Shown here in pieces: positions 11,992 through 60,790 of a DNA stretch of 64,000 nucleotides (within the stretch, counting starts at the first letter, position 1; each line of letters begins with the position of its first letter). The position numbers and the translations under genes are program-made. Below the pieces are notes generated by a model, which searched no databases, had not been told where the DNA came from, and saw nothing but the letters and a program-made list of their open reading frames with translations. The stretch comes from Paramacrobiotus metropolitanus (Eukaryota > Tardigrada > Eutardigrada > Parachela > Macrobiotidae): contig NW_026570221.1 of the NCBI RefSeq assembly GCF_019649055.1, positions 2,604,001 through 2,668,000 on the forward strand. The letters run 5' to 3'.

Positions 11992-13421
11992 ATGAACAAT
12001 TCCACGATCGACGCTCATATTGTACAATGTACCTGGAACAACACGGCCATATTTGGATTATTTGTTTTCATTTCCGGCCTTCTCACTAACGGCACCGTCG
12101 TCCTGGCCCTCCTCAGTCGACACGCGATATGGTCACCGTTTATGGTGTACGTCTTTAATTTATTCTGTGCCAATATTCTCCAGTCGTTTACCGGGGCGCT
12201 GCTGGATTTTATTAATTCTTATTGCTCGGTTTGGTTCCTCGGCCGGACGTTGTGCTTCGTGTATAATTATGGAGAATGGACAGCGGCCATCCTGCAGATG
12301 CTCTGCCATCCGTTGATCGCTCTTAACCGCATAACGGCCATCTACGCACCGGTGTTTTACCGACACACTCACACCTACCGAAACGCGATATTATTGTGCG
12401 TGTTAACGTGGCTGTTGGCGCATATTATCACGCTACCCATGCTCATTATCAACACCGCTGTCGATGTACGGGATGTCTGTCATGTGGACCTAAACGAGCC
12501 GGTGCAGAAATGGTGGGCGTTCGTGCTGGATGTGGTGTGCGTGCTCTGCATCGGTATGGTCGCCGTGTGCTTTCCGGTTGTGTATGTGAAATATCGCCGA
12601 TCGCGTTTGCATAGCATGCGCGTCCGACCAATCAAACCGGATAACGCGTCGGACCAATCCAATCGGCTTGATATCGGTGTTATAGGGTGAGTGAAGCTCT
12701 TGCTGGATCAGCTAGGCTTCTAGAATTGAAGATGCCCTGTTCCTGTTTTTGCCGTTAACAGGCTAATATAGTTCATATTAAAAAAATACAGCCTTTAAGT
12801 TTTTAACCTCTTATGACCGGCTGAAACAAACAACCATTTATGTAGTTGCATTTTTTCTGTAACGAAAAAAAATCCATTTTTTTCAAATCTTGCTTTGGAG
12901 GTGACAGCACCGCTGTGAAGACTAAACTGAACCGAAATCAAAGCGCCAACATTTCTTAAATCTCGGAATTTATAATTACGGCAGGTATCTGTACACCTGC
13001 ACCACTCAACTTATGTATTATAAACCCGAAATCTACAATCAGTCGACGGTTTTGATAAAAGTTGTAGATTATCAAGAAAGTATATGCTGTACGTAAAATC
13101 TTGAAAAATCGGTACTGTACGGACATAATTAAATAATGGCGCTGTTCTTCCAGAGACGCTTTATCGCGTTCCCAAATGTTTTTGCTACTGCTTCTAACGA
13201 TCAGCACCCTGATATTATGGACACCGGGCAACCTTTACGCACTGTTGTCTGCAATCAACTTGTGGGCGGATCCGGCCGCCGAAGCCATCATTATTCCCTT
13301 GTTCGCCATGCAAGCCATCTTGGATCCCATTATATTTATCCTCAGTCTGCCTCCCTTACGGATGACCGTCAGAAATTTCTTCAGGTGCAATGATTCAGCT
13401 CACAGTCAGTTGAAAATTTGA
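11992..13421 (+). CDS. Orphan rhodopsin-class (class A) G-protein-coupled receptor, 2 exons, 320 aa
   Basis: Exons 11992-12686 and 13154-13421 join at a phase-2 intron (donor gtgagt, acceptor ttccag). The 320-residue product sits in the plasma membrane with seven helices. Landmarks: N-glycosylation sites near the N-terminus (NNST, NNTA); helix 1 with TNGTVV; helix 2 about 50-74; Cys88 at the start of helix 3; an NRI triplet at 112-114 in place of DRY, exactly 24 residues after the Cys; Trp140 in helix 4; ECL2 Cys163; Pro195 in helix 5; LWTPGN at 253-258 in helix 6; DPIIF at 289-293 in place of NPxxY. The ligand cannot be read from the sequence. Helix 2 carries Asn (CANIL) where most receptors have Asp, while helix 7 has Asp where most have Asn. 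A peptide or amine receptor is possible. The start is the first ATG of the open frame. Confidence 0.88.
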
Positions 13422-24644: not shown

Positions 24645-24730
24645 CAGTACTATAATCTCAAAATATTCGCTATAATCGCAGTACTATAATCTCAAAATAT
24701 TCGCTATAATCGCAGTACTATAATCGCAAA
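24645..24730. repeat. 34-bp tandem repeat, about 2.5 copies
   Basis: The unit starts cagtactataatctcaaaa and ends ctataatcg. Copies are at 24645-24678 and 24679-24712 with a partial third to 24730. It abuts the 163-bp fold-back element. Confidence 0.8.
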
Positions 24731-26184
24731 ATGTACCTGGAAGCGGCGGGGCGGGTTGTCCGAGCATACGAGGGCCACATAACTGGCCACCTTATGATCG
24801 GATGACCCTCCACGCCACCATTCTGGCATCCACGGCCGATCGTGGATGCAAACTGTGCAAGTCGCCGCCGTTCGTTAGGGGCTGTTTGCACTGGCGAGTC
24901 ATCGCCCGCGATCGGCCCGGGGCAGATGACGAGCAAAAACACGCCGGTATGCTGGTGCAGAACCTCCAAAACTGCTCTCAGTTATTTGCGCAGTGCATTT
25001 GTGTAAGCACCAGCACTGCGCGGATAACTTCCGCATACATTACGCACATAACTGGTTCGTCTGTGTAGTTGTGTATATAGTATACATTAACACAACGTTC
25101 AACATGCGTTTTTCATCCTCTCTGGTCCCCCTCCCCTCGGTTAATCAGGGCCACAGGTAACACTCTGCCCATGCAGACAAGCGATCACGGGGGATCCGGT
25201 GGCCGACCCCTGCTACTGGTTTCCATCGTGCAGCGGCAGGCTGCCCGCTGTCGCTACCAGATGGAAACCAGTGGCCGGCTGCAGCCAATCATCTTTCAAC
25301 CCGGCATAATAATCTGCCGACAAAATGCGGTAAACTTATCGAAGAAAATTTTGCCCAACTGACTGAGGCAAATAAGGCCAAGGCGGCAGTGCAATCAGAA
25401 TCATACATGGCCACAAAATTACTACATTTGATTTTTATTGGGTTATTCTCATTAACATAGGTTAAATGCAAAATTACGCAGTTCATCTAAATTACTTGGT
25501 GCGCTTTAGGCTTTACGCAGTAATATGTGACGGCGGACGCAAAACATTTTTCGAAACTGTACCTGGTTGGACGACGGTGACTGTCCAAGATTCACAGGGT
25601 CCATTCAAAACTTCCGAGGCCGATTGCTGGCAATGATGCGCAGGTGCAGCGCCTTGGATGCGACACCGCGCAGTGCGAGTGCAACATCCTCGAGATACTG
25701 CATCTGCAAGACCTTACACTTGCACTGAGCGGATAACTGCCATTAACCACCCAGGGTATCCAGTTACTGTATATACCACATTACACTACAACACCGCACA
25801 ATAGGTGGCTGGCTATGCATACTCATAGCAGCTTGATTTTGCAAGGTCATGCGATTTCCGCGGATCGGAAAAAGCCGGAATATGGTTGATACTCCGGTTT
25901 TATCCATTCCGCGGATAACAGCGCGTAGATGCCTACAAATAGTCAGATGACGACGAGGAGACCGGCGGTTGATTCTGCCCCTGGTTTTTATCAGGCAGCG
26001 ACAGCCACTCATCTCACAACGCGCATAATCTGCCGAACAATCCTCATAGTGAAAAAAGGTTTCTATGCAAGCCTACACTCCGCGTGAAAATAATCAATCG
26101 ACAGAGAAGTTAAAAACTATCGATAAAGCAGTCAGAAATCGAACGTTACAATTTTAGATTTAGCCAAATGCATCCTTCCGCTGC

Positions 26185-29553: not shown

Positions 29554-29779
29554 AAAATCGCGTTCGACGTGAACTACATCAAAAATCTTTGCAAATGAAC
29601 ACTGAGATGTAAAGCTGCTAAAGGCAGCATGAAACCAGAGCAATCTCAAGGAATACCATCTGACCACCCAGATGGCCAGCAATAAATCTCAACCGCGACA
29701 GCACATTAATGTCAAAGGCGAGACAAAATCATACCGCTCGCCAGAATTAACATTCATTATCTCCGATAATTCCTTTTAA
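29554..29779. repeat. R2 direct repeat, copy a (226 bp)
   Basis: Begins aaaatcgcgttcgacgtgaa and ends gataattccttttaa. It differs from 33797-34022 at about three positions by eye and has the same length. Confidence 0.85.
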
Positions 29780-33796: not shown

Positions 33797-34022
33797 AAAA
33801 TCGCGTTCGACGTGAACTACATCAAAAATCTTTGCAAATGAACACTGAGATGTAAAGCTGCTAAAGGCAGCATGAAACCAGAGCAATCTCAAGGACTACC
33901 ATCTGACCACATAGATGGCCAGCAATAAATCTCAACCGCGACAGCACATTAATGTCAAAGGCGAGACAAAATCATACCGCTCGCCAGAATTAACATTCAT
34001 TATCTCCGATAATTCCTTTTAA
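33797..34022. repeat. R2 direct repeat, copy b (226 bp)
   Basis: Near-identical partner of 29554-29779, closing the long A-rich core on its right side. Confidence 0.85.
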
Positions 34023-40104: not shown

Positions 40105-43100
40105 ATGGACCTTACGGAAGAAGAAGCGGTATTCTACGCCAGCCTGAACTGTACGATGAATAGTTCGACGGAAGTGCTGATGTTCCTGAACCAGAGTGAT
40201 CCCGGCTACCTGGTCCAGAGATACAACTACATCAGTATCTTGCTGATTTTAGCCGGGTTTGGTGTGGTGCTGAATGCCAGTATGATTGCGTTCCTGCTGA
40301 AAAATGCCATGTACCGGCATTCGGCGCTGAGCGTTCTGGTGAGTAAACAAACAGTTTTCCTTGGAATATGCAGACAGTAAAGTAAATATCAGGTGGCGGG
40401 AAAAAATGCGCTTTTAGTCTGGCATACAATAATTATGCGGTATGGATTGATTGACGTGTGTCTATGTAAGAGAAAATTGGATAAATATTTGTACAGTTAA
40501 ACCATCCAGTCATCCGTTATAATTTTCTCGAATAAACTGGAGTGCCGGACAACAAGTTTGCAAATAAACTGCACATACGCGCTTCTGCTGCCGTTTTATG
40601 CCAGCATATTAAAACTGGAATTTTTATCAGTGTCTATCAGCTCAGGCCTGTTGTTATGTTAATTGGCTATTGCCAGAGTAAAAATAAAAATATATTGATA
40701 CAGCAGACTGTGCACTACCCGGTACCTTCTCAGCTTCGTCCTTCTGGCCCATAGGCCTCGATATTACCACTATCCGTACGTAGTAGCCACTACACTACAA
40801 TAGTTTACGAAATGACCGATTCACAACTACAAACAAATTACAAAATTATAAACTTAGTAAAAAATAATATTTAAACGAATGTATCTGTTTTCAGTATTTG
40901 GAGAGCACCAGCCAATAGCCATGCCAAATGCTTGAAACGTCGTATCGTACTTAGCGTAACCTCTATTTAATTTGTATTTTTCGCTGTTCCTTCACCCAGC
41001 CCATTTGAAATCTTGCTTGTAGGTGTAGAAAACGTGCTGCAGGGCAAGGCAACATCCTGTAGTGCAGGTGTACCTATCAGGTGTTGCTATATCCGGTTTC
41101 GGTTGAGGTTAACGGCGATAGATACCACAATATGACCCAGCGTAAACCTTTTTTCATAAAGGTTCTGAATGGAATGTTTTTCATTTTTTCAAAAAAAAAA
41201 ATAAACTTTTTTTAAAGATAGAGTATTGCAAAAATGACCATTCAGAGGGATCTTCATTTGAGGTGGGCTTCTAAAGCAGAATCTGTCAACAAATCAAACA
41301 CATGCGGTGTTAAAAAAAATAAAATTCTAATCATTATTGTGGATACAGACACAGCTATAAGTTATAGTAGCGCACTTTACAGATCTGTACTAACCGGCTT
41401 GTACTCGTACAATGTGGAATTATAAATAATTATGAAGTCTAAATTCTTTATTGCAATGGTACGCAAAAAACCACCTCTCCATTGCACCCCAGTGAAAGAG
41501 CTTTATTCGCATGGAACTTGTTCCAGTTATATAGAATTGATTTTATTTTTTACTTTTTTACCCGCCGATTTCCATTTGCTTTGATTGTTAATTGCAGAAA
41601 CATTTCGAAGTATATTGAACGTCAATCAATGGCGTTTCGTCAGCAGCTTTTGCGACCAGTGACCACTGGGCAGTACATTCATTAGACATTTAAACGTTGA
41701 ATTTTTTTTTAAATCGTAATTTAAACATTATTGGCAGTAGGTATTCCATGAAGATGTCATAGAGCTGGTATTAATAATTAATATGTAATGGGAAGAATGT
41801 GGGCGCGTTTAGAATTGCAGTGGGCTAGGTCATTGATACGATCATAAAATTATTAGCATCATGTGTCATGGGTGTGTATTACCATTGCTGTCAAAATTTA
41901 ATGTCAATCATCCCCGTTCAACCCATAAAAGTGAATTATTCAAGCGTGCGAACTACAGTACAAAACGATTCTAACGACTTTGCTTGCTTAAACGACCTTT
42001 AAATTTAAAATCATTGCAATTAGTACCCCTTCCAAGAATCACTGCCGAGTTATGCACCCAAGGAATTCTGTACATGCTTTATTTAGCTGCAATTTCGTCA
42101 GCCCTGATAGGCTGATCTTTACACACACCGCTACTACCGCAATTTTTTTTACCGTACTGTATCTGTACGCTAATTAGCGTATAATTAGAATGGTAAATAG
42201 GTGCTAAATTGTCTGTATTTTTTTTCGGCAGTTACTACAGCTGTTTGTGGCTAATCTGCTGGTCTCGGTATTCTGTCTCCTGGCCGACGGGATCTGGAAC
42301 ATCACCGTGCAGTGGCTGGGCGGGGATTTTCTCTGCCGCATCATCAAGTTCTTCCAGATGTTCAGGTGCGTCTTAACTCTTTCAACACCATCACACCACA
42401 CACGCTCCGTTGGACAATACAGTGCTGCGTGTGGATGTTGACTTCCGGGTCGTGCATGTGTGCAGTGCGGTGCAGCTGGCGCGGTTTAATGAGCGGGTGG
42501 TATTGACTACACCGAGGGTGCTGGTTCGCGCAGCGGGAGACCGCTCGGGCCTTTCTGCGGCACGGTGGGAATTCGCTGTAGAGTATAGACGGTACAGTAT
42601 ATTAATGGCGGCCGTTTGGGGAGGGTGCGTGCCCATTGTGCGCCCGGTCCCGTCTGGAGGCGTTGCTAATGGTAATCGGGCAGACAAACGCTCCGCAGGT
42701 GGGCCGTGCACGCTAAGTATCGGCATTTATCATTTTAACGCGCTTTACACTTCGTTTTTATGGTATCCGTTGCAAGATCAACATCGAGACTCGACGGGGA
42801 AATGTTTACTACGTTTATGAAGAACTACATGAAGGAACAGCAGATTAATTTCTTAGAAATCAGATTTTTGAAGAATTTAAAAGTTTTTAAGCAGTTAAGG
42901 AAAAATCTACCAAAGGCGCACAAAATAAAAAAAAGCCATTCAAATTCAAAGCGATAATATAAAAACTGCTACCGCTATTAATTTTGGCTAGTTCAGCAGA
43001 AATTTTTGTATCTCGAAGCGATAACATTTAGTTGGATTCGAAACCGCAACAAATATGCACTTGGAAAATTTTTTTTAAAAATTAGAGCACGGATTCGGTT

Positions 43101-46100
43101 TAAAAGTCATATACAAATTATTTTAAAAAATCATTTCAAAATATTATTTTTGGAAAGCACAGAAGAAAATTAGAAACTACTTTGAAAATCTCAAAATTCT
43201 CAACACCACGAAAATTATATGATAACCTAAATAAGTGCACTTTTTTGCCAATTTCAGTAAATCTTTTGTAAGATGTTTTCTTTCGGTCTGCCATACAAAA
43301 TCTATTAAAAAGCATACAGAAAATGCTTTTAAAAACTGAATCGGAAGAAAAGAAACAAACAGAAAATGAATTGTCAACCTGAAAACGTAAAGAAAGACCT
43401 GAAAAAATAAAGCGATCTAAATGACGCAGCATAAACAAGGTTGTAATAAAACAAATCATTGACGATCGTTTTGACTGATGCGCAGTATGCTAAACACCGG
43501 TAAATTAACCATAATTCAGTCAATGCGATGACATTTTGCTAATCTTTCCAAGACAATGAGGAAGTCGCCGTCCGTGTTAGCTTAATGAAATCATACACGA
43601 TTTATCCAAACAAACCCATTTTTTTCTGTCAAACGCATTAAGACAATCTGCAGTTAAGCAATTCCACCGAGACGCCGACTTAGCCCCAAAACGGGATAAA
43701 CGGCGCTTATCCCGGCACCAACGCAGCAATTAGTCGGCCGGCAAATCCCTTGCGGCCAGTACACTTACGCACACACACGCAGCGTATACATTTCGTTAAG
43801 TGCTGTTGGCCTTTACAAACGTAACGGGCGATCAAATGCGCTGCACGGATTCTTACAGTTTATACGCCACCACCTTAATCCTCACCGGGATGAGCATTGA
43901 GACCTGCATTACCGTGACCTTTCCGCTGAGTAAATCCAATAAGTCGGAGAGTCAATCGCGGGTGAAAGTCATCAGCGGATTTGCCTGGCTGGCCGCGTCG
44001 CTGTGCAGTGTGCCGCAGGTAAATTAATTATCGTTCAATAATATATTACTTTGTATATTGCAACACCAACCCGGTGTGTGTCTGTGCGTCATCCCTTCCC
44101 CTACTGTTCGGAAAGATTTTCGGAATTAAAGATTAGCGGGGTAAAGGTTACGTCAGGTGGTGGAGTACAGCTACTGGCGGTGCTTTTAAAACTGCGGGAA
44201 AAAAATCTGGAACAATTTAAAAGTGACGTCAAAACGGTTAATCTTTGATGAAGATAGAGGAAGCTTGGTGCGTCGATGTTTTCCGCAAAATATTTTCTAA
44301 CGGTCTGCTCTACCGTACTATTCTGATTTGACACACGAATCTTTCGCTTTGTTGATGAACACATGAAAAAAACCTTTTAAAAAATTTAATCCCATTAAAT
44401 TACTGTTCAGATAGGTACGCACAAGTACAGTAAAAATCTAAAAAAATTTGAATAAAATAGAGTTTTAATTCACATGGTAATTTGCGTTAATCATGTAGCC
44501 GCGCGCTACAAGGCGGAAAATTCTGTAACACAAAACAAGTTGCGGAAATATTTTTTTATGCAAAAAACATCGATACACACACGAAAAAAAATGGTTTATC
44601 GTAAATTCTTATATTATTAAATTAAATTTTCGAGTAACTGACAGCCGACAAACCGGTTTTTTTGATTAGGATCATGTTCATATGTTATCGAGTAGTGTGA
44701 CGTCGTATTTTGAGTATTCTGATTGCTTGAACGGTTTTCGATGTACATACGCTGATGATATGTCGCAAAGCGGCAATTTGGCTGACACAAATTATGGCTA
44801 ATGTTCGGCTTTTACGCAAAAATGTCTATTCTCAAGGAATGCGTTGTTGCAGAAGTGTAGTAACGTGTCCAGTAACGATCAGGATTCAACGAAGAAACAT
44901 ACCGAAAAAGTACACATTTAACGTCGACTATAATTGCAGGCGGTGATCTTCCACACGGAACGCGCACCGATTTGCGCCAAATTCTACCAGTGTGTTACGC
45001 ACGGTTTCTATTCGAGTACCGATCAAGAGCTGGCCTACACCATGGCCACGTTAATCGTCATGTGCTTGGTGCCGCTGTGCATTATTATCATCTGCTATCT
45101 GGTCATCTCCGTGGCCATCACCCACGAATCGCAGATTGCGGCCGGGAATCTCGGTAAGCACTCAATAATTGCAACCGGTAGCACTCCCTTGCGATTTCCG
45201 GCGGAGATTCCGGGATGTGTTAAATACCGGCATCAAGGGCCATTCACTGTGAATGAGGGGCCATTGACGACCAAGGTGGAGATTAGCGCGTTTTGCGGGT
45301 TGTTATATAATTATGGGTGCAAAAGAGATTCGCGCGTTGAGAACACGTATTGACGTCAGATTAATCTTAAATGTACTGAGCAGTGAGCGCACCTAAAACG
45401 TTTACGGGATTTAATTATTATTCAGGCGTAAAATAGCACTCGAAACTTCGCAGACCGTAGCAAAATCTAACAAAGCATTAGTGATATTAAACGTAATAAA
45501 ATTAGTGCTACTCAAATTATAACGGTAAAATAAGTATTAAAATAAAAATAAGTCTAAAAACTATCCTGGTTAAATCAGCATTTCCGGTTAATGATCGTTA
45601 TGATTATATAGTAAAAAAACTGGCTAATGGATTTTTTTTTGGAGAACTCGTACGCTTGTTAAGCCGAATGAAATTTTACAGGAATGAAATTTTACTTCCT
45701 ATTGGTTAGCAAAATAATTTAAATTAACGGCTGTTTGCTTAATATCTTGGCGAATAGCTAGCAGATGCAGTTCTTGCAGTAACCAGATTCTGACTTATGA
45801 AATACTTTTATTGATTTTTTTGTGTAGATTCTGGCACTAATTCGCGAATGTGTATGTGTTACCTAGAAGAGATCAGCATCTCCATGTCCAGCATGCAAAA
45901 CACGGCGATGCTGCGGCCGGCCAGTTCGGGCCAGGGAAAACGTCTATACCGCAAGACCCGGCAAATCTCCTTGTGGATGACTTTCATCACGGCTGCTAGC
46001 TTCGTTATCTGCTGGGGTGAGTTTTAATAACAGCCATATATAGCCACATCAGCACAATAACACTTCACTACGGCGTAATGATCAAAATAATACTCTTTTT

Positions 46101-47821: not shown

Positions 47822-48208
47822 GCCGCTGAGATTCGAAAACTGGGAAAATATGAGAAGTTGAGGGATCGATACATTGTACAGCCTTTTGCTTTCGAAACTA
47901 TGGGATCCTGTGGACCAAGCACTAGTGGTTTTATCTCGGATCTGGCCAAACGTATTCGGGAGCAGACTGGAGAAACTATGGGATCCTGTGGACCTTTTGC
48001 TTTCGAAACTATGGGATCCTGTGGACCAAGCACTAGTGGTTTTATCTCGGATCTGGCCAAACGTATTCGGGAGCAGACTGGAGAAAGCCGTGCGAAGCAG
48101 TTTTTGTTGCAGCGTTGCAGTTTAGAAATACAACGGGGCAACGCTGCCTGTGTTCTTGGTACAGTCGAGTGCAGTCGCAATCTCGATGAACTGTTTTTGC
48201 TTTTCTAG
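47822..48208 (+). mobile_element. LINE 3' fragment with internal in-frame duplication
   Basis: One open frame of 128 codons ends at a stop and matches the C-terminus of the larger LINE fragment at 49023-49919 (shared landmarks: PxAFETMGSC, RIxEQTGExRA, EIQRGNAA-VLGTV, LDELF/LEELF). It begins abruptly at AAEIRKLGKYEKL, so it is 5'-truncated. A 111-bp segment is tandemly duplicated (47882 and 47993), repeating the FAFETMGSCGPSTSGF portion in frame. It belongs to the region downstream of reverse transcriptase in a non-LTR retrotransposon and has no cellular role. Confidence 0.75.
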
Positions 48209-49022: not shown

Positions 49023-49919
49023 TCAGAACAAGAAAAATAACTCTTCTAACTCTCGAGAACACCCGACCGTCCCCAGGACAGAAGCCGCGTTTCCGCGCTG
49101 AATTTCCACACTTATACGTTGCCACAAATAATGAACAGCGCGCGCTTCTCCCGTTTGTTCTTTGATACGCCGGCCGACTTCATTGATGAACTGGTGGGTA
49201 CTTTCGCTACAACTACCCATAGTTTCGAATGCCACTGGCTGGAAAAAATGCCGATCAGTGAGTTCGGAATATAGGTTCCGCTTCCGCACTTCCGCGTCTT
49301 CAGCAGCCGATCCCGCTGCTTCTGAACAGCCAGCTATATACGAAGTAGCGAATGTGTCACAAACTGTTACATCCCATATCAGAGGGAGGCCATTTCTCCA
49401 TGGGAAGAGTGATAAGCCGTCTGGCCGCTTCCCGTCCAGTCTGCACAGTCCGGGAGGCTCCAAGATTGACGGCACCTTTGCTGATCCCAGGCTACGCTGA
49501 ATCACGCTATTCAGACTCGCATGCCTCCTGAACCTTCCTTGGCTTTTGACGCACGACAATCCATGTAAGCCGCATGTATCAACCATTTCACCACACCGAC
49601 ATTTATGCTCTTTACAAATAGGCGCCCCCATCCGCAAAGCAACAGCGATCCGCAGACCGGCATCGTCCAGCAGTGTGCCAAGGCTGGCGACCGGCAATGC
49701 AAACAACCAGGCACTGGCATCCTTAGCAGAGGCAGCCAACAGACGAGCAGAGGCAATAACGTCGGCGCTTTCTTTTAAGGCTTCCAGTTTCCCGGCAGTC
49801 AGCATATCCGACCACAAGCGTTGGTTGCTCCGGTCTTCCACCGCAGGTGCACTCTTTCCTGTACGTTCTTCCCAGCACAGCTCTACGTCAGACCGCTCGT
49901 CGGGGCAATCTTCGGGCAC
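49023..49919 (-). mobile_element. LINE (non-LTR retrotransposon) C-terminal fragment, 298 codons
   Basis: The - strand frame is intact over 298 codons but 5'-truncated: no reverse transcriptase motif is present. The sequence matches the conserved tail found after the reverse transcriptase in a LINE group common in aquatic invertebrates. It has a Cys/His cluster (C-R-C-GE...C-GLHGLSC), a KRPDG...WDVTVCDTFA block, a VAFETMG block and an EIQRGNAASVLGT ending. I infer a decayed insertion rather than a host gene. It faces the related fragment at 47.8-48.2 kb. Confidence 0.75.
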
Positions 49920-50837: not shown

Positions 50838-51528
50838 CTTTAAGAGAAATGGCCCGGCACATAGCGTCAAAAATGGGATACATACACTAAAACTTTCGCT
50901 TTCGCGCACTTCAAACCACTCTGTTTTAATACTTTATGGCGCTCTAAAGCGAGGTGATTTGTATACATTGTTCTGATAACCGCAACATCCGGTTGCCGAG
51001 ATATGTCGTATTAAAATGAGTGGAACGTTTAAATGCATTGTTGTGTACCAAAAGTCTCGTGTTACTCAATCCTCTTGAAACCTTGTTTAAAAAATCAAAA
51101 AGGCCATAAATTCGAAAGTGAACCAATATCAGATTCACAGCAAATTTTTTTTTTAATTTTAGAACAAATTTTTGTTGTGTACGTGTACCGAAAATCTGTC
51201 TATTACCCGACCTTCTTGAAATTATGCTGTAAAAGACAAATGGTCATAAAGTCGAAGGAGAACAAATTTCAGTTTCATATCATTTTTCCATAAATTTAAA
51301 CTGAATTTTAAAAATTTATGCATTTAAACTTTTCACCCATTTTAGTTCGCCATATCTCGGCAACCGGATTTTGCGAGCGCAAACGGTATTCGAATCAATG
51401 TACACGACTCATTAAGCTTTAGAAAGAAATAAAGTCTTACACAAAAAGTGATTCGGAGTGCGCGAAAGCGAAAGTTTTTGTGTATGTATCCCATTTTTTG
51501 ACACCATGTACCGGACCATTTCCTTTAG
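50838..51528. mobile_element. 691-bp fold-back element with about 170-bp TIRs, ATCCGGTTG family
   Basis: The left arm (50838-51015) and right arm (51345-51528) are inverted copies. Outer ends are agagaaatggcccggcac and gtaccggaccatttcc, then gggatacatacactaaaact against agtttttgtgtatgtatccc, then the ATCCGGTTGCCGAGATAT motif against its complement. Ends matching this outer sequence recur at 60.7-60.8 kb. There is no transposase, so it is non-autonomous. Confidence 0.75.
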
Positions 51529-51761
51529 TGTAGTATACTGAGTTCACGTGTTTGTTGTCCTTCTAATACTTTCCTATTTCTGTCCTTTGTCCTTGTCTTC
51601 TTAGCAACTTCTCTTCTGTTTTCCCTGTTCTCTAGTTACGATTCCTCAGTTTCCTTTCAGTTGTTTTCCTGACCAGTACGATACAATAAAGATACGATTC
51701 CTACACATGACAAAACATGACATTTAGAATCAAATTAATTGCTGTTCCAGTAATTGTATTT

Positions 51762-52367
51762 CTTGTGGCAGTTACTGCAGTTGTTCGTGGCTAACCTGCC
51801 GGTATCGGTATTCTGTCTCCTGGCCGACGGGATCTGGAACATCACCGTGCAGTGGCTCGGCGGGGATTTCTTATGCCGCATCATCAAGTTCTTCCAGATG
51901 TTCAGGTGCGTCTTAACTCTTCAACACCATCACCCCACACACGCTTGTCTGCAGGCCCGTCTTTAGCTTTTTCGAAGGGGGTGGCGCATTGCTTCGCGCC
52001 AGCTGCGCCAGTTGGAAAATGGCCGAAAATTTGAGGAAAATCGTAGAAAAGTGGTTTTTTGAGCCACTGTTCTACGATTTTCTTCGAAAATTTCGGTGCG
52101 CCCCTCTGCGCCAGTCCCATTTTCCGGCGTCTGCGCCAGTTTTCGCGCCATGCCCCAGCTCCCGGCGTAATTTTTTCAAAACTTTTCGCTCCCGAAGGGG
52201 GTGGGGTGCGCGCGCCAGTGCGCCTTCCCCCCTTAAAGACGGGCCTGCTTGTTTGGACAATATAGTGCTGCGTGTGGATATTGACTTCCGGGTCGTGCAT
52301 GTGTGCAGTGCGGTGCAGCTGGCGGATTTAATGAGCGGGTGGTATTGACCACACCGATGGTGCTGGT
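51762..52367 (+). pseudogene. Orphan duplicate of AKH-type receptor exon 2 plus flanking intron
   Basis: 51772-51905 is a second copy of receptor exon 2 (42232-42365), with acceptor gtggcag and donor gtgcgt in the same places. It is followed by about 150 bp of the same intron, now interrupted by a MITE at 51952-52247. In 134 coding bases I count ten differences, of which only one changes an amino acid (Leu to Pro in helix 2). No partner exons were found within the window: upstream is a fold-back element and downstream the 137-bp satellite. It is therefore a partial duplication, or a piece of a second receptor gene disrupted by repeats. Confidence 0.75.
51952..52247. mobile_element. 296-bp hAT-like MITE with 8-bp target-site duplication
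   Basis: Terminal repeats CAGGCCCGTCTTTA and TAAAGACGGGCCTG are exact complements. The flanks are CTTGTCTG (51944-51951) and CTTGTTTG (52248-52255), an 8-bp duplication with one mismatch. The paralogous empty site near 42404-42413 lacks the insert, which proves insertion. An 8-bp duplication and a CAG-type terminus fit the hAT superfamily. The interior contains a further hairpin (aatcgtagaa...ttctacgatt) and no coding capacity. Confidence 0.85.
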
Positions 52368-52404: not shown

Positions 52405-52747
52405 CAACCGGATGTTGCGCGCGCAGACGGTTTTCAGAACAATGTACACAAATCATATAGCTTTAGAGCGACATAAAGTATGGTAAAGGTAAAGATCTGT
52501 ACCAGTATGGTGCATTACATTACTGTTATGGCCTAACAGTAAACTCATTAAAATTAACATGTCGTCGTCGTCGTTGCATGTTTATTGCACTATATAGCAC
52601 CATGGTACAATAAGAAGTATTGTCACTGTTATTAAATTCATAAGACTGAACAATCTTTAATTGCATCGTCTGTATCGGTTTTTTCTGTATCGGTTTATTC
52701 GGTAAGGTAACTCTCGTACACCAGTACTTTAAAAAAATTACAACCAT

Positions 52748-55700
52748 TTCAAAGTACTGCTTTACATTACATTTAAAGTACTGCAGTACTTTCCAGGTGT
52801 CTCAGTGCTCAATCGCATGTTTCGGCCTGTTCGGGGATGTTCGGCAAGGTCACATTGGTGCATCACTACTTTGGAAGTATTACAGTACTTTCAAAGTACT
52901 GTCCTACTTTCAAAGTACTGCAGTACTTTCCAGGTGCCTCAGTGCTTAATCGGCCTGTTCGGCAAGGTCACATTCGTGCATCAGTACTTTGGAAGTATTA
53001 CAGTATTTTCAAAGCACTGTCCTACTTTCAAAGTACTGCAGTACTTTCCAGGTGTCTCAGTGCTCAATCGCCTGTTTCGGCCTGTTCGGGGATGTTCGGG
53101 AAAGTCACTTTGGTGCATCAGCACTTTGGAAGTATTATAGTACTTTCAAAGCACTGTCCTACTTTCAAAGTACTGCAGTACTTTCCAGGTGTCTCAGTGC
53201 TCAATCGCCTGTTTCGGCCTGTTCGGGGATGTTCGGGAAGGTCACTTTGGTGCACCAGTACTTTGGAAGTATTACAGTACTTTCAAAGCACTGTCCTACT
53301 TTCAAAGTACTGCAGTACTGATGCACCAAAGTGACCTTCCGAACATCCCGAACAGGCCGAAACAGGCAACTACACTGAGACACCTTGAAAGTACTGCGGT
53401 GTTTTGGAAGTATTACAGTGCTTTCAAAGTACTAAGCACTGAGACACGTTGAAAGTACTGCGGTGTTTTGGAAGTATTACAGTGCTTTCAAAGTACTACT
53501 TTCCAGGTGTCTCAGTGCTCAATCGACTGTTTCGGCCTGTTCGGGAAGGTCACTTTGGTGCATCAGTACTTTGGAAGTATTACAGTACTTTCAAAGCACT
53601 GTCCTACTTTTAAAGTACTGCAGTACTTTCCAGGTATCTCAGTGCTCAATCGCCTGTTTCGGCCTGTTCGGGGATTTTCGGGAAGGTCACTTTGGTGCAT
53701 CAGTACTTTGGAAGTATTACAGTACTTACAAAGCACTGTCCTACTTTCAAAGTACTGCAGTACTTTCCAGGTGCCTCAGTGCTCAATCGCCTGTTTCGGC
53801 CTATTCGGGGATGTTCGGGAAGGTCACTTTGGTGCATCAGTACTTTGGAAGTATTACAGTACTTTCAAAGCACTGTCCTACTTTCAAAGTACTGCAGTAC
53901 TTTCCAGGTGTCTCAGTGCTCAATCGCCTGTTTCGGCCTGTTCGGGGATGTTCGGGAAGGTCACTTTGGTGCATCAGTACTTTGGAAGTATTACAGTACT
54001 TTCAAAGCACTGTCCTACTTTCAAAGTACTGCAGTACTTTCCAGGTGTCTCAGTGCTCAATCGCCTGTTTCGGCCTGTTCGGGGATGTTCGGGAAGGTCA
54101 CTTTGGTGCATCAGTACTTTGGAAGTATTACAGTACTTTCAAAGCACTGTCCTACTTTCAAAGTACTGCAGTACTTTCCAGGTGCCTCAGTGCTCAATCG
54201 CCTGTTTCGGCCTATTCGGGGATGTTCGGGAAGGTCACTTTGGTGCATCAGTACTTTGGAAGTATTACAGTACTTTCAAAGCACTGTCCTACTTTCAAAG
54301 TACTGCAGTACTTTCCAGGTGTCTCAGTGCTCAATCGCCTGTTTCGGCCTGTTCGGGGATGTTCGGGAAGGTCACTTTGGTGCATCAGTACTTTGGAAGT
54401 ATTACAGTACTTTCAAAGCACTGTCCTACTTTCAAAGTACTGCAGTACTTTCCAGGTGCCTCAGTGCTCAATCGCCTGTTTCGGCCTATTCGGGGATGTT
54501 CGGGAAGGTCACTTTGGTGCATCAGTACTTTGGAAGTATTACAGTACTTTCAAAGCACTGTCCTACTTTCAAAGTACTGCAGTACTTTCCAGGTGTCTCA
54601 GTGCTCAATCGCCTGTTTCGGCCTGTTCGGGGATGTTCGGGAAGGTCACTTTGGTGCATCAGTACTTTGGAAGTATTACAGTACTTTCAAAGCACTGTCC
54701 TACTTTCAAAGTACTGCAGTACTTTCCAGGTGCCTCAGTGCTCAATCGCCTGTTTCGGCCTATTCGGGGATGTTCGGGAAGGTCACTTTGGTGCATCAGT
54801 ACTTTGGAAGTATTACAGTACTTTCAAAGCACTGTCCTACTTTCAAAGTACTGCAGTACTTTCCAGGTGTCTCAGTGCTCAATCGCCTGTTTCGGCCTGT
54901 TCGGGGATGTTCGAGAAGGTCACTTTGGTGCATCAGTACTTTGGAAGTATTACAGTACTTTCAAAGCACTGTCCTACTTTCAAAGTACTGCAGTACTTTC
55001 CAGGTGCCTCAGTGCTCAATCGCCTGTTTCGGCCTATTCGGGGATGTTCGGGAAGGTCACTTTGGTGCATCAGTACTTTGGAAGTATTACAGTACTTTCA
55101 AAGCACTGTCCTACTTTCAAAGTACTGCAGTACTTTCCAGGTGTCTCAGTGCTCAATCGCCTGTTTCGGCCTGTTCGGGGATGTTCGGGAAGGTCACTTT
55201 GGTGCATCAGTACTTTGGAAGTATTACAGTACTTTCAAAGCACTGTCCTACTTTCAAAGTACTGCAGTACTTTCCAGGTGCCTCAGTGCTCAATCGCCTG
55301 TTTCGGCCTATTCGGGGATGTTCGGGAAGGTCACTTTGGTGCATCAGTACTTTGGAAGTATTACAGTACTTTCAAAGCACTGTCCTACTTTCAAAGTACT
55401 GCAGTACTTTCCAGGTGTCTCAGTGCTCAATCGCCTGTTTCGGCCTGTTCGGGGATGTTCGGGAAGGTCACTTTGGTGCATCAGTACTTTGGAAGTATTA
55501 CAGTACTTTCAAAGCACTGTCCTACTTTCAAAGTACTGCAGTACTTTCCAGGTGCCTCAGTGCTCAATCGCCTGTTTCGGCCTGTTCGGGGATGTTCGGG
55601 AAGGTCACTTTGGTGCATCAGTACTTTGGAAGTATTACAGTACTTTCAAAGCACTGTCCTACTTTCAAAGTACTGCAGTACTTTCCAGGTGTCTCAGTGA

Positions 55701-58700
55701 TCAATCGCCTGTTTCGGCCTGTTCGGGGATGTTCGGGAAGGTCACTTTGGTGCATCAGTACTTTGGAAGTATTACAGTACTTTCAAAGCACTGTCCTACT
55801 TTCAAAGTACTGCAGTACTTTCCAGGTGTCTCAGTGCTCAATCGCCTGTTTCGGCCTGTTCGGGGATGTTCGGGAAGGTCACTTTGGTGCATCAGTACTT
55901 TGGAAGTATTACAGTACTTTCAAAGCACTGTCCTACTTTCAAAGTACTGCAGTACTTTCCAGGTGTCTCAGTGCTCAATCGCCTGTTTCGGCCTGTTCGG
56001 GGATGTTCGGGAAGGTCACTTTGGTGCATCAGTACTTTGGAAGTATTACAGTACTTTCAAATCACTGTCCTACTTTCAAAGTACTGCAGTACTTTCCAGG
56101 TGTCTCAGTGCTCAATCGCCTGTTTCGGCCTGTTCGGGGATGTTCGGGAAGGTCACTTTGGTGCATCAGTACTTTGGAAGTATTACAGTACTTTCAAAGC
56201 ACTGTCCTACTTTCAAAGTACTGCAGTACTTTCCAGGTGTCTCAGTGCTTAATCGCCTGTTTCGGCCTGTTCGGGGATGTTCGGGAAGGTCACTTTGGTG
56301 CATCAGTACTTTGGAAGTATTACAGTACTTTCAAAGCACTGTCCTACTTTCAAAGTACTGCAGTACTTTCCAGGTGCCTCAGTGCTCAATCGCCTGTTTC
56401 GGCCTATTCGGGGATGTTCGGGAAGGTCACTTTGGTGCATCAGTACTTTGGAAGTATTACAGTACTTTCAAAGCACTGTCCTACTTTCAAAGTACTGCAG
56501 TACTTTCCAGGTGTCTCAGTGCTCAATCGCCTGTTTCGGCCTGTTCGGGGATGTTCGGGAAGGTCACTTTGGTGCATCAGTACTTTGGAAGTATTACAGT
56601 ACTTTCAAAGCACTGTCCTACTTTCAAAGTACTGCAGTACTTTCCAGGTGTCTCAGTGCTCAATCGCCTGTTTCGGCCTGTTCGGGGATGTTCGGGAAGG
56701 TCACTTTGGTGCATCAGTACTTTGGAAGTATTACAGTACTTTCAAAGCACTGTCCTACTTTCAAAGTACTGCAGTACTTTCCAGGTGTCTCAGTGCTCAA
56801 TCGCCTGTTTCGGCCTGTTCGGGGATGTTCGGGAAGGTCACTTTGGTGCATCAGTACTTTGGAAGTATTACAGTACTTTCAAAGCACTGTCCTACTTTCA
56901 AAGTACTGCAGTACTTTCCAGGTGCCTCAGTGCTCAATCGCCTGTTTCGGCCTATTCGGGGATGTTCGGGAAGGTCACTTTGGTGCATCAGTACTTTGGA
57001 AGTATTACAGTACTTTCAAAGCACTGTCCTACTTTCAAAGTACTGCAGTACTTTCCAGGTGTCTCAGTGCTCAATCGCCTGTTTCGGCCTGTTCGGGGAT
57101 GTTCGGGAAGGTCACTTTGGTGCATCAGTACTTTGGAAGTATTACAGTACTTTCAAAGCACTGTCCTACTTTCAAAGTACTGCAGTACTTTCCAGGTGCC
57201 TCAGTGCTCAATCGCCTGTTTCGGCCTATTCGGGGATGTTCGGGAAGGTCACTTTGGTGCATCAGTACTTTGGAAGTATTACAGTACTTTCAAAGCACTG
57301 TCCTACTTTCAAAGTACTGCAGTACTTTCCAGGTGTCTCAGTGCTCAATCGCCTGTTTCGGCCTGTTCGGGGATGTTCGGGAAGGTCACTTTGGTGCATC
57401 AGTACTTTGGAAGTATTACAGTACTTTCAAAGCACTGTCCTACTTTCAAAGTACTGCAGTACTTTCCAGGTGCCTCAGTGCTCAATCGCCTGTTTCGGCC
57501 TATTCGGGGATGTTCGGGAAGGTCACTTTGGTGCATCAGTACTTTGGAAGTATTACAGTACTTTCAAAGCACTGTCCTACTTTCAAAGTACTGCAGTACT
57601 TTCCAGGTGTCTCAGTGCTCAATCGCCTGTTTCGGCCTGTTCGGGGATGTTCGGGAAGGTCACTTTGGTGCATCAGTACTTTGGAAGTATTACAGTACTT
57701 TCAAAGCACTGTCCTACTTTCAAAGTACTGCAGTACTTTCCAGGTGTCTCAGTGCTCAATCGCCTGTTTCGGCCTGTTCGGGGATGTTCGGGAAGGTCAC
57801 TTTGGTGCATCAGTACTTTGGAAGTATTACAGTACTTTCAAAGCACTGTCCTACTCAAAGTACTGCAGTACTTTCCAGGTGTCTCAGTGCTCAATCGCCT
57901 GTTTCGGCCTGTTCGGGGATGTTCGGGAAGGTCACTTTGGTGCATCAGTACTTTGGAAGTATTACAGTACTTTCAAAGCACTGTCCTACTCTTCAAAGTA
58001 CTGCAGTACTTTCCAGGTGCCTCAGTGCTCAATCGCCTGTTTCGGCCTATTCGGGGATGTTCGGGAAGGTCACTTTGGTGCATCAGTACTTTGGAAGTAT
58101 TACAGTACTTTCAAAGCACTGTCCTACTTTCAAAGTACTGCAGTACTTTCCAGGTGCCTCAGTGCTCAATCGCCTGTTTCGGCCTATTCGGGGATGTTCG
58201 GGAAGGTCACTTTGGTGCATCAGTACTTTGGAAGTATTACAGTACTTTCAAAGCACTGTCCTACTCTTCAAAGTACTGCAGTACTTTCCAGGTGTCTCAG
58301 TGCTCAATCGCCTGTTTCGGCCTGTTCGGGGATGTTCGGGAAGGTCACTTTGGTGCATCAGTACTTTGGAAGTATTACAGTACTTTCAAAGCACTGTCCT
58401 ACTTTCAAAGTACTGCAGTACTTTCCAGGTGTCTCAGTGCTCAATCGCCTGTTTCGGCCTGTTCGGGGATGTTCGGGAAGGTCACTTTGGTGCATCAGTA
58501 CTTTGGAAGTATTACAGTACTTTCAAAGCACTGTCCTACTTTCAAAGTACTGCAGTACTTTCCAGGTGTCTCAGTGCTCAATCGCCTGTTTCGGCCTGTT
58601 CGGGGATGTTCGGGAAGGTCACTTTGGTGCATCAGTACTTTGGAAGTATTACAGTACTTTCAAAGCACTGTCCTACTCTCAAAGTACTGCAGTACTTTCC

Positions 58701-58800
58701 AGGTGCCTCAGTGCTCAATCGCCTGTTTCGGCCTATTCGGGGATGTTCGGGAAGGTCACTTTGGTGCATCAGTACTTTGGAAGTATTACAGTGCTTTGAA
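52748..58800. repeat. 137-bp satellite array, about 44 copies
   Basis: Tandem monomers of 137 bp, each with tcagtgctcaatcgcctgtt, cggggatgttcgggaaggtc, actttggtgcatcagtactt and AAAGTACTGCAGTACTTT (a perfect 18-bp palindrome). Copies are very homogeneous from about 53.5 to 58.8 kb and more diverged at the left edge. A few have 1-3 base indels in the cctactttcaaag segment (57855, 57988, 58264, 58676). No stop codon occurs in any + frame of the consensus; because 137 is not a multiple of three, frames rotate from copy to copy and give overlapping reading frames up to 1788 codons. There are no promoter, splice or protein-family signals, so I read it as satellite DNA, not a gene. Inverted monomers occur at 53319-53400 and after 58820. 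Confidence 0.95.
53319..53470. repeat. Inverted satellite segment near the left edge
   Basis: The sequence turns into the complement of the monomer (tgatgcaccaaagtgacctt, aacaggccgaaacagg, cactgagacacc) for one partial unit, then returns to the forward orientation by about 53400-53500 with a duplicated gcggtgttttggaagtatta piece. Confidence 0.8.
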
Positions 58801-58819
58801 AGTTGGACGTAGGGTAATA

Positions 58820-59065
58820 CTTTCACCGTACTGATGCACCAAAGTGACCTTCCCGAACATCCCCGAACAGGCCGAAACAGATGACTGAGCGCTGAGACAC
58901 CTGGAATGTACTGTAGTACTTTGAAAGTAGAACAGTACTTTGATAGTGCTATAATACTGCCATAGTAATGATGCACCAAAGTGATTGAGACACCTGAAAG
59001 TACTGCAGTGCCGAATAAAGCAAAGTGCTGCTACGCTTTGAAAATACTATAATACTTTGCAGCTA
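58820..59065. repeat. Inverted and degenerate satellite monomers at the right edge
   Basis: An inverted monomer at about 58826-58935 (gatgcaccaaagtgacctt, ccccgaacaggccgaaacag, ctgagacacctgga) is followed by shorter, mutated pieces (aaagtactgcagtgccg, atactataatactttgcag) to about 59065. Confidence 0.8.
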
Positions 59066-59316
59066 AGTACTAGCTTTTAATGTTTACCATAAACAATCGG
59101 ATTCGAGTTAGTACTGAATAAATGTGCGATTCATTAGTAGAGTTAATCTTTGATAAAAAAACACACAATGAAACCAAATAGAAATACTGTAATTAAGGTA
59201 GACTTTTCTCGAGCTGATTGTACCTCGCTTACACATTTTTCAGGTATAGAACTACTTTCACCTTAATTTTTTTGGAAAGAATATGTTTTAGTTGTAGTGT
59301 GGTGGTACTGGAAGAT

Positions 59317-59411
59317 TATAATGTACTGCAGTACTTTGTAGCAGGGCAGTACTTGTGCAAATGCCCCATATACTGTTCGCCTGTTTCGGGATGTTCGGCG
59401 GTGTTCGGGAA
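59317..59411. repeat. Isolated degenerate satellite monomer
   Basis: aatgtactgcagtactttgt, cgcctgtttcgggatgttcg and tgttcgggaagatcacc show the monomer order but with heavy divergence, about 250 bp beyond the array. Confidence 0.7.
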
Positions 59412-60704
59412 GATCACCTTGAAAATGTATTGGTAGTACTGTATTATATTATTTTGAAATAAATACTGCAATATCTGTAGTGCGTAAGTACTTACTGTAA
59501 AGTGCTTTCGCCATCGTTCACACCACAAATCGGTCGATTTACGAGGTAATTCCGACGGCTTTCAAGTTGACTTACAAGGCGCTGCTGCAAATTATACAGT
59601 ATGCACCTTGGCCCAGTATTAATTTGTGTATAATACGCAGTGCAAGTATGGCATTAGCAGTTATTTAGCACCACATTTGTTTTACAGTAGTACTGCTACC
59701 CGTAGTACTCATCGTTGTCTTACAACCCTTTTACTAACTCACGGTTTGTTGGTGTTGTTGCTGTTGTTGCATAAACATACAGCAACTCATACTCATCCTT
59801 TTACTAACACACAGTTTGTTAACTCATCGCGACGAAAATTGACTAAGCACAAACTGTCTCCAAGCGACTGTTAAAGAAGCATGCGATATCAAAGAAACCA
59901 TTATTGTCAGTAAAAGTACTGACTAAGTTTTTGTAATAGTTAGTATGGGCTTTATGGTTGCATGAGTACTGTACTGCCCAATAATGCGCATTCTGGTTCA
60001 AATCAGTACTGTAGTTAACTATCAATCTATTAATAACAGTTTAATAAATACACTAACTATCTAAGAAAAGCAGCATGTGAATCAGTATGACTGCAGTGCA
60101 AACAGTCTGTGTAATCACAAATAAAAAAAATTCGCTGAAAAACAGGAAATATACTGTACAGAAATTTCTGTACTATGATACTGACCGAAGTTAATGGCGC
60201 CACTGTACTCTAAAATACTTAGTATGCTGCTGCCCCAAACCCCACGTGTACGACTGCGGTTGAGTGTAAAACAATGGAAGTTATTGAACTAAGGCTTTAA
60301 ATTTTAAATTGGTTTATGGGTCAGAGTTTTAGTAATGCAAAGTTATACCCTTAATATGCCCCAGTGCTCGAACACGACGTGAATTTTCTCGATGTCGATA
60401 AACAACCTGAAAAAATTTAATGAAGCGTAAATACTTGTAAATGCAATTATGCAAGTACCAGTGGTGCACAAAAATATGAACCATAATGTTCATAAACATG
60501 CACCATAATATAAGGGGCATATATGGGCAGAGTAGCAAGCGGCGAAGGGGTGACGATAGATACTATACTCTGTACAATAACTGACAATTGTGAGGTAAGT
60601 AGTGGTCAGGTTCATGGTGCACAAAACATACGGTGCATGCACCAGTGGTGCATAAATATGCACCGTTGGTACGGATCTTTACTGGTGCCTAAAGTATTAA
60701 AAAA

Positions 60705-60790
60705 AGGTGGTTTGGAGTGCGCGAAAGCGAAAGTTTTAGTGTATGTATCCCATTTTTGACGCTATATGCCGGGCCATTTTCCTTAAGTTT
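60705..60790. repeat. Solo end of the ATCCGGTTG fold-back family
   Basis: gagtgcgcgaaagcgaaagt, tttagtgtatgtatcccat, tttgacgctatatgccgggc and cattttccttaag match the right end of the 50838-51528 element. No matching left arm is nearby. A more diverged relative follows at about 60935-61060. Confidence 0.7.

Follow-up and report, generated by a model that had tools for sequence, protein, structure and literature searches.

The window, by which we mean the whole 64-kb stretch of DNA that was analysed, contains a tandem array of period 137 that TRF places at 52768-58802 with 43.9 copies. Elsewhere, the open reading frame (ORF) at 11992-12690 encodes a rhodopsin-type receptor with a score above the Pfam cut-off, and the ORF at 44934-45353 gave four weak Pfam matches, the best of them to rhodopsin-type receptors and each below the cut-off; these two ORFs point to an animal genome. 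When 10 of the 160 stop-to-stop ORFs were compared with Pfam (E up to 1), nine had no match; a Pfam comparison of seven ORFs left three without a match besides the receptor ORF and three ORFs of the array. Neither Rfam at its gathering scores nor the tRNA scan gave a match over the window. Other tandem repeats lie outside the satellite. One of them, at 24645-24732, has a 34-bp unit that includes CAGTACT and shows 98% matches. A period-23 tandem pair is found twice, at 29677-29721 and 33920-33964, about 4.2 kb apart, which suggests that one segment was duplicated, with an AT-rich stretch between the two.

With a 12-base motif as anchor, 43 copies of the 137-bp unit were recognised, with 36 of the 42 spacings exactly 137, so that copies of one unit follow each other head to tail as they do in a satellite. 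The commonest unit, type A, is present in 16 exact copies and the second, type B, in 11; the two types differ at two sites. Labelling the copies by the first of these diagnostic sites revealed alternation of A and B in part of the array and runs of A elsewhere. The copies of the core (Table 1) are exactly A or B in 27 of 36 cases and those numbered 1 to 6 in none of six, and this greater likeness of core copies than of edge copies is the pattern of concerted evolution. Within the rearranged insert that interrupts the edge copies, TRF recognised a 64-bp tandem at 53373-53498. A BLASTN search of the 64-kb window detected no further copy of the unit beyond 52698-59421. An exact 24-base pattern had no match in collections of viral and prokaryotic contigs, a result with little bearing on a eukaryote.

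Table 1. Components of the 137-bp array and of its edges, in positions of the window
Feature	Position	Strand	Remarks
Decayed monomer debris, left edge	52698-52786	+	BLASTN match to the unit; 4 forward stops in 89 bases
Edge copies 1-4, diverged	52787-53315	+	Copy 2 with 19 gap positions; stops at 52947 and 53138
Rearranged, partly inverted insert	53320-53496	.	Includes a duplicated 64-bp piece; 6 stops per strand
Edge copies 5-6	53497-53760	+	Copy 5 with 10 gap positions; stop at 53611
Homogenised core, 36 copies (7-42)	53761-58692	+	A and B alternating in part; stops at 55698 (copy 21) and 56250 (copy 25)
Hairpin of one typical copy	53975-54031	+	16-bp outer stem and inner stem of 5+3 bp; three 19-bp near-palindromes
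Last forward copy (43), truncated	58693-58802	+	Stop at 58797
Inverted decayed copies, right edge	58803-59065	-	5 stops in the monomer orientation (263 bases), 22 on the other strand
Separate decayed monomer fragment	59322-59421	+	BLASTN match to the unit; 1 stop in 100 bases

The feature that had drawn attention to the array is its lack of stop codons. Read as a circle, neither the A nor the B unit contains a forward stop triplet, and the opposite strand of the type A unit contains eight, in agreement with the original prediction that this strand is not open. The length of the unit equals 2 modulo 3 and the frame rotates with each copy; for this reason a perfect array is open in all forward frames and specifies in each of them the same 137-residue periodic sequence, shifted only in phase. 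The prediction of a satellite devoid of stops in all three forward frames holds for these typical units and fails for the interval 52748-58800 to which it had been applied, where 14 forward stop triplets were counted. Two of these fall in the homogenised core, one each in copies 21 and 25. The other 12 comprise the three of the edge copies, seven that lie at or inside the rearranged insert, from 53319 to 53450, one in the left debris at 52774 and one in the last copy. Any one stop interrupts a single frame, and both core stops share the same one, so that the remaining two frames run uninterrupted from stop to stop for 1793 and 1732 codons. The predicted overlapping frames of up to 1788 codons, kept open by frame rotation, are indeed present; the largest of them starts with TTG, and the longest ATG-started ORF has 1628 codons.

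These frames raise the question of whether a transcript of the array could be translated with a rotating frame into a polymer, three copies encoding a 137-residue periodic peptide, identical in the three frames save for its phase. The stop-free commonest unit, the ORFs of 1788 and 1706 codons, the one ATG that each unit supplies and the two frames that pass through the core without any stop would all be expected of such a product, although the two longest ORFs listed start with TTG and run to the end of the array, and stops have entered core copies 21 and 25 as well as edge copies. From the alignment of the copies, 24 substitution events that distinguish them were picked by hand, seven of them in the core. 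The choice excluded the truncated copy 43, every gap position and the insert at 53320-53496; changes common to copies 1 and 2 were counted once, as were the two recurrent A/B differences, and the change at position 23 was counted twice since copies 2 and 25, which carry it, are far apart. In the type A unit, 65 of the 411 possible single substitutions create a stop. Among the 24 events, five do so, against 3.8 expected under uniform substitution and 4.6 when the expectation is matched by type of change. The probability of finding none among 24 was 0.003, and a complete avoidance of stops would therefore have shown up. For the core alone, where two of seven events create a stop, the test has little power (probability of none, 0.19). 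Over the three frames the 24 events have 72 effects, of which 18 are synonymous, 49 nonsynonymous and five stops, with 20.1, 47.4 and 4.6 expected, which leaves no excess of synonymous change. Small as these numbers are, they contain neither the selection against stops nor that for synonymous change by which a gene for a repeat protein would be recognised, and nothing suggests selection on the peptide.

The three largest ORFs of the array matched several Pfam families, among them RICTOR_M, otospiralin and LktC, and the whole-protein scores exceeded the curated cut-offs for RICTOR_M in all three ORFs, for otospiralin in two and for LktC in one. In every row, not a single stretch passes on its own, and these identities were rejected as chance resemblance summed over copies. 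Scores beyond the cut-offs, even if reached only through summed copies, nevertheless count against a non-coding array, as do the two frames open for more than 1,700 codons. The suggestion that a rotating-frame repeat might be translated thus found no support in the substitutions, and it is extremely improbable that under some condition the array is transcribed and translated into a periodic 137-residue polymer containing cysteine and aromatic residues. Were it to do so, most frameshifts would leave the kind of product unchanged.

If the open frames are not maintained for translation, the question becomes how readily a stop-free unit arises. The original prediction had guessed a chance of one in several hundred to a thousand, and the simple null models make it rarer than that. 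Stop-free sequences made up a fraction of 0.00017 of the mononucleotide shuffles of the unit (0.017% of 200,000) and of 0.00023 of the dinucleotide shuffles (0.023% of 40,000, about 1 in 4,400), and Markov models (orders 2-4; training on the window's first 50 kb; 20,000 samples per order) gave 0.00015-0.0006 (0.015-0.06%). With values near 0.0002 in the shuffles, base or dinucleotide composition alone was rejected as the source of the openness. The internal structure of the unit changes this estimate. Of its 137 bases, 67 are taken up by a 19-bp near-palindrome repeated 3.5 times, at eight differences from a perfect repeat. Two null models kept this arrangement but with a random 19-bp palindrome, one of them shuffling the remaining half of the unit, the other using a guessed 12-mer structure; they were stop-free on a given strand in 0.44% and 0.75% of 60,000 cases (1 in 130-230) and on either strand in 0.84% and 1.47%. 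Compared with the dinucleotide shuffle, the palindromic sub-repeats thus raise the chance of a stop-free unit roughly 19-33 times. The unit also lacks 15 of the 64 triplets, and it is thus common here for particular triplets to be missing.

Among 56,827 overlapping 137-bp pieces of real sequence from the window outside the array, 0.62% are stop-free on the forward strand and 0.37% on the reverse, and tiling of the 52.6 kb to the left of the array gave 0.54% per strand (about 1 in 190). This left-hand region holds 18 separate places where a 137-bp piece lacks stops on at least one strand; some of them may be coding, and their presence means that suitable founders exist. Even the palindrome models seldom give a unit without stops (0.4-0.75% per strand), and this is a point against a non-coding origin of the openness. 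Many satellites exist, and a stop-free founder is uncommon, yet not startling for one satellite among many.

The same near-palindromes also give the array the potential to form hairpins. A hairpin sequence is present once per typical copy, and folding of the 58-base segment 53975-54032 as single-stranded DNA gave -15.9 kcal/mol with a z of -6.3. The corresponding segments in edge copies 1-3 reached z values of -7.1, -6.4 and -3.3, and in copy 1 a single change makes the inner stem continuous. The whole 137-bp unit folds with a z of -3.8. In the outer debris, folding does not clearly exceed that of shuffles, either in the left piece at 52741-52784 (44 bases; z 0.36) or in a piece of one inverted right copy (z -1.76). 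The hairpin may matter in chromatin, or it may aid amplification by slippage, help of this kind being speculation. As a separate observation, copies 36, 37, 39 and 42 (57734-58692) carry small length changes (135, 138 and 138) and one substitution, all at the same CTACTTTC site, which lies within the hairpin and is a possible slippage hotspot. A strong hairpin shared by the typical copy and edge copies 1-3 would be expected if it were the selected feature, with the array working as structured DNA, for instance in (peri)centromeric chromatin, and the absence of stops a by-product; satellites that can fold into hairpins or cruciforms have been reported at the (peri)centromeres of Tribolium madens (PMC13081366). 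Against this, tandem near-palindromes yield hairpins without any selection, the outer debris folds weakly or not at all, and the array was seen over only about 6 kb, so that a selected structural role appears improbable.

The edges of the array bear on its history. The right-edge debris is still poor in stops in the monomer orientation (Table 1), and in its best-kept part the difference is one stop against 15 on the other strand. This asymmetry weighs against a purely accidental openness and is also expected if the founder was stop-free; alone, it does not tell constraint from descent. The original prediction named related monomers elsewhere with ordinary stop codons as evidence that would speak against it, and such monomers were found in part, as edge copies and debris of this same array that carry stops.

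The most convincing account of these observations is that the array is a local, homogenised, non-coding satellite whose openness was an accident of its founder, spread by homogenisation and not maintained for translation; we hold this with considerable confidence. The founder would have arisen when near-palindromic 19-bp units (CAGTACTTTCAAAGTACTG) became joined to a TGTTCGG-rich segment. It would have lacked forward stops by chance, eased by the palindromic sub-repetition. A head-to-tail duplication could then have been amplified, probably recently and in part as A/B dimers, through unequal exchange, gene conversion or replication slippage, and homogenisation would have copied the openness of the founder through the array, while decayed and inverted copies remained at the edges. 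The array itself, its A/B pattern, the decay of its edges, its potential for hairpins and the lack of a measurable avoidance of stops are observed; the founder, the mode of exchange, the recent amplification and the absence of translation we infer. Coincidence preserved by homogenisation and constraint by the repeated AGTACTTT motif, put forward at the outset as alternatives, fit the data when they are combined. A giant ORF can accordingly arise without coding: a single unit that lacks stops opens every forward frame when its length is not divisible by three, and automatic annotation could predict genes of more than 1,600 codons in a stretch whose sequence itself looks ordinary.

Where the founder came from is a separate matter. 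The array might have begun as an internal tandem repeat within a mobile element (foldback-, MITE- or retroelement-like) and have expanded in place later, an origin that concerns the founder and is compatible with the non-coding satellite. Forward copies on the left and inverted copies on the right would suit such an element, but matching outer ends were not recognised on inspection by eye. Dispersed repeats adjoin the array, yet BLASTN places no copy of the unit itself in the 64-kb window outside 52698-59421. A precedent is provided by Lathyrus, in which satellites are reported to have grown from short tandem arrays within LTR-retrotransposons (PMC7004042). Taken together, a mobile-element origin is an unlikely though reasonable option. 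By BLASTN, a dispersed repeat roughly 100 bp long flanks the satellite on both sides and in both orientations (50840-50936, 51430-51529 and 60690-60788). Another repeat is nearly continuous at 42214-42525 and split at 51755-51945 and 52253-52367, the 307 bases that split it resembling an insertion and bearing an inverted repeat at 52023-52096. At 47882-48086, TRF detected an exact tandem duplication of period 111 (1.8 copies), which encodes a phrase that by eye resembles one in the minus-strand ORF at 49023-49919. That ORF has no Pfam match and looks like the end of a retroelement.

The logic of the open frames recalls the coding by oligomer repeats that Ohno and Epplen reportedly proposed in 1983, according to which a stop-free repeat of a length not divisible by three keeps all frames open and specifies one periodic peptide. 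The array shares with that idea the stop-free repeat and the single periodic peptide, whereas the idea is said to concern primordial coding repeats and the present array gives no sign of coding. In the open-access literature, no satellite free of stops in three frames was mentioned among the matches listed, as far as their titles and the openings of their abstracts go, which does not prove that none exists. The internal organisation has closer counterparts. Tandem arrays with A/B dimers are described for diverse animals and plants (PMC4053949), and they resemble the present array in their head-to-tail units, their two alternating diagnostic variants and their homogenised copies; here, in contrast, the alternation is irregular and only about 6 kb is seen. 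In Tribolium madens, the (peri)centromeric satellites are organised in macro-dyad symmetries with hairpin or cruciform potential (PMC13081366), and the present array resembles them in its hairpin potential and its switch of orientation. The macro-dyads of Tribolium madens extend over tens of kilobases, whereas here a few decayed inverted copies lie at the edge and the hairpin resides inside each typical unit.
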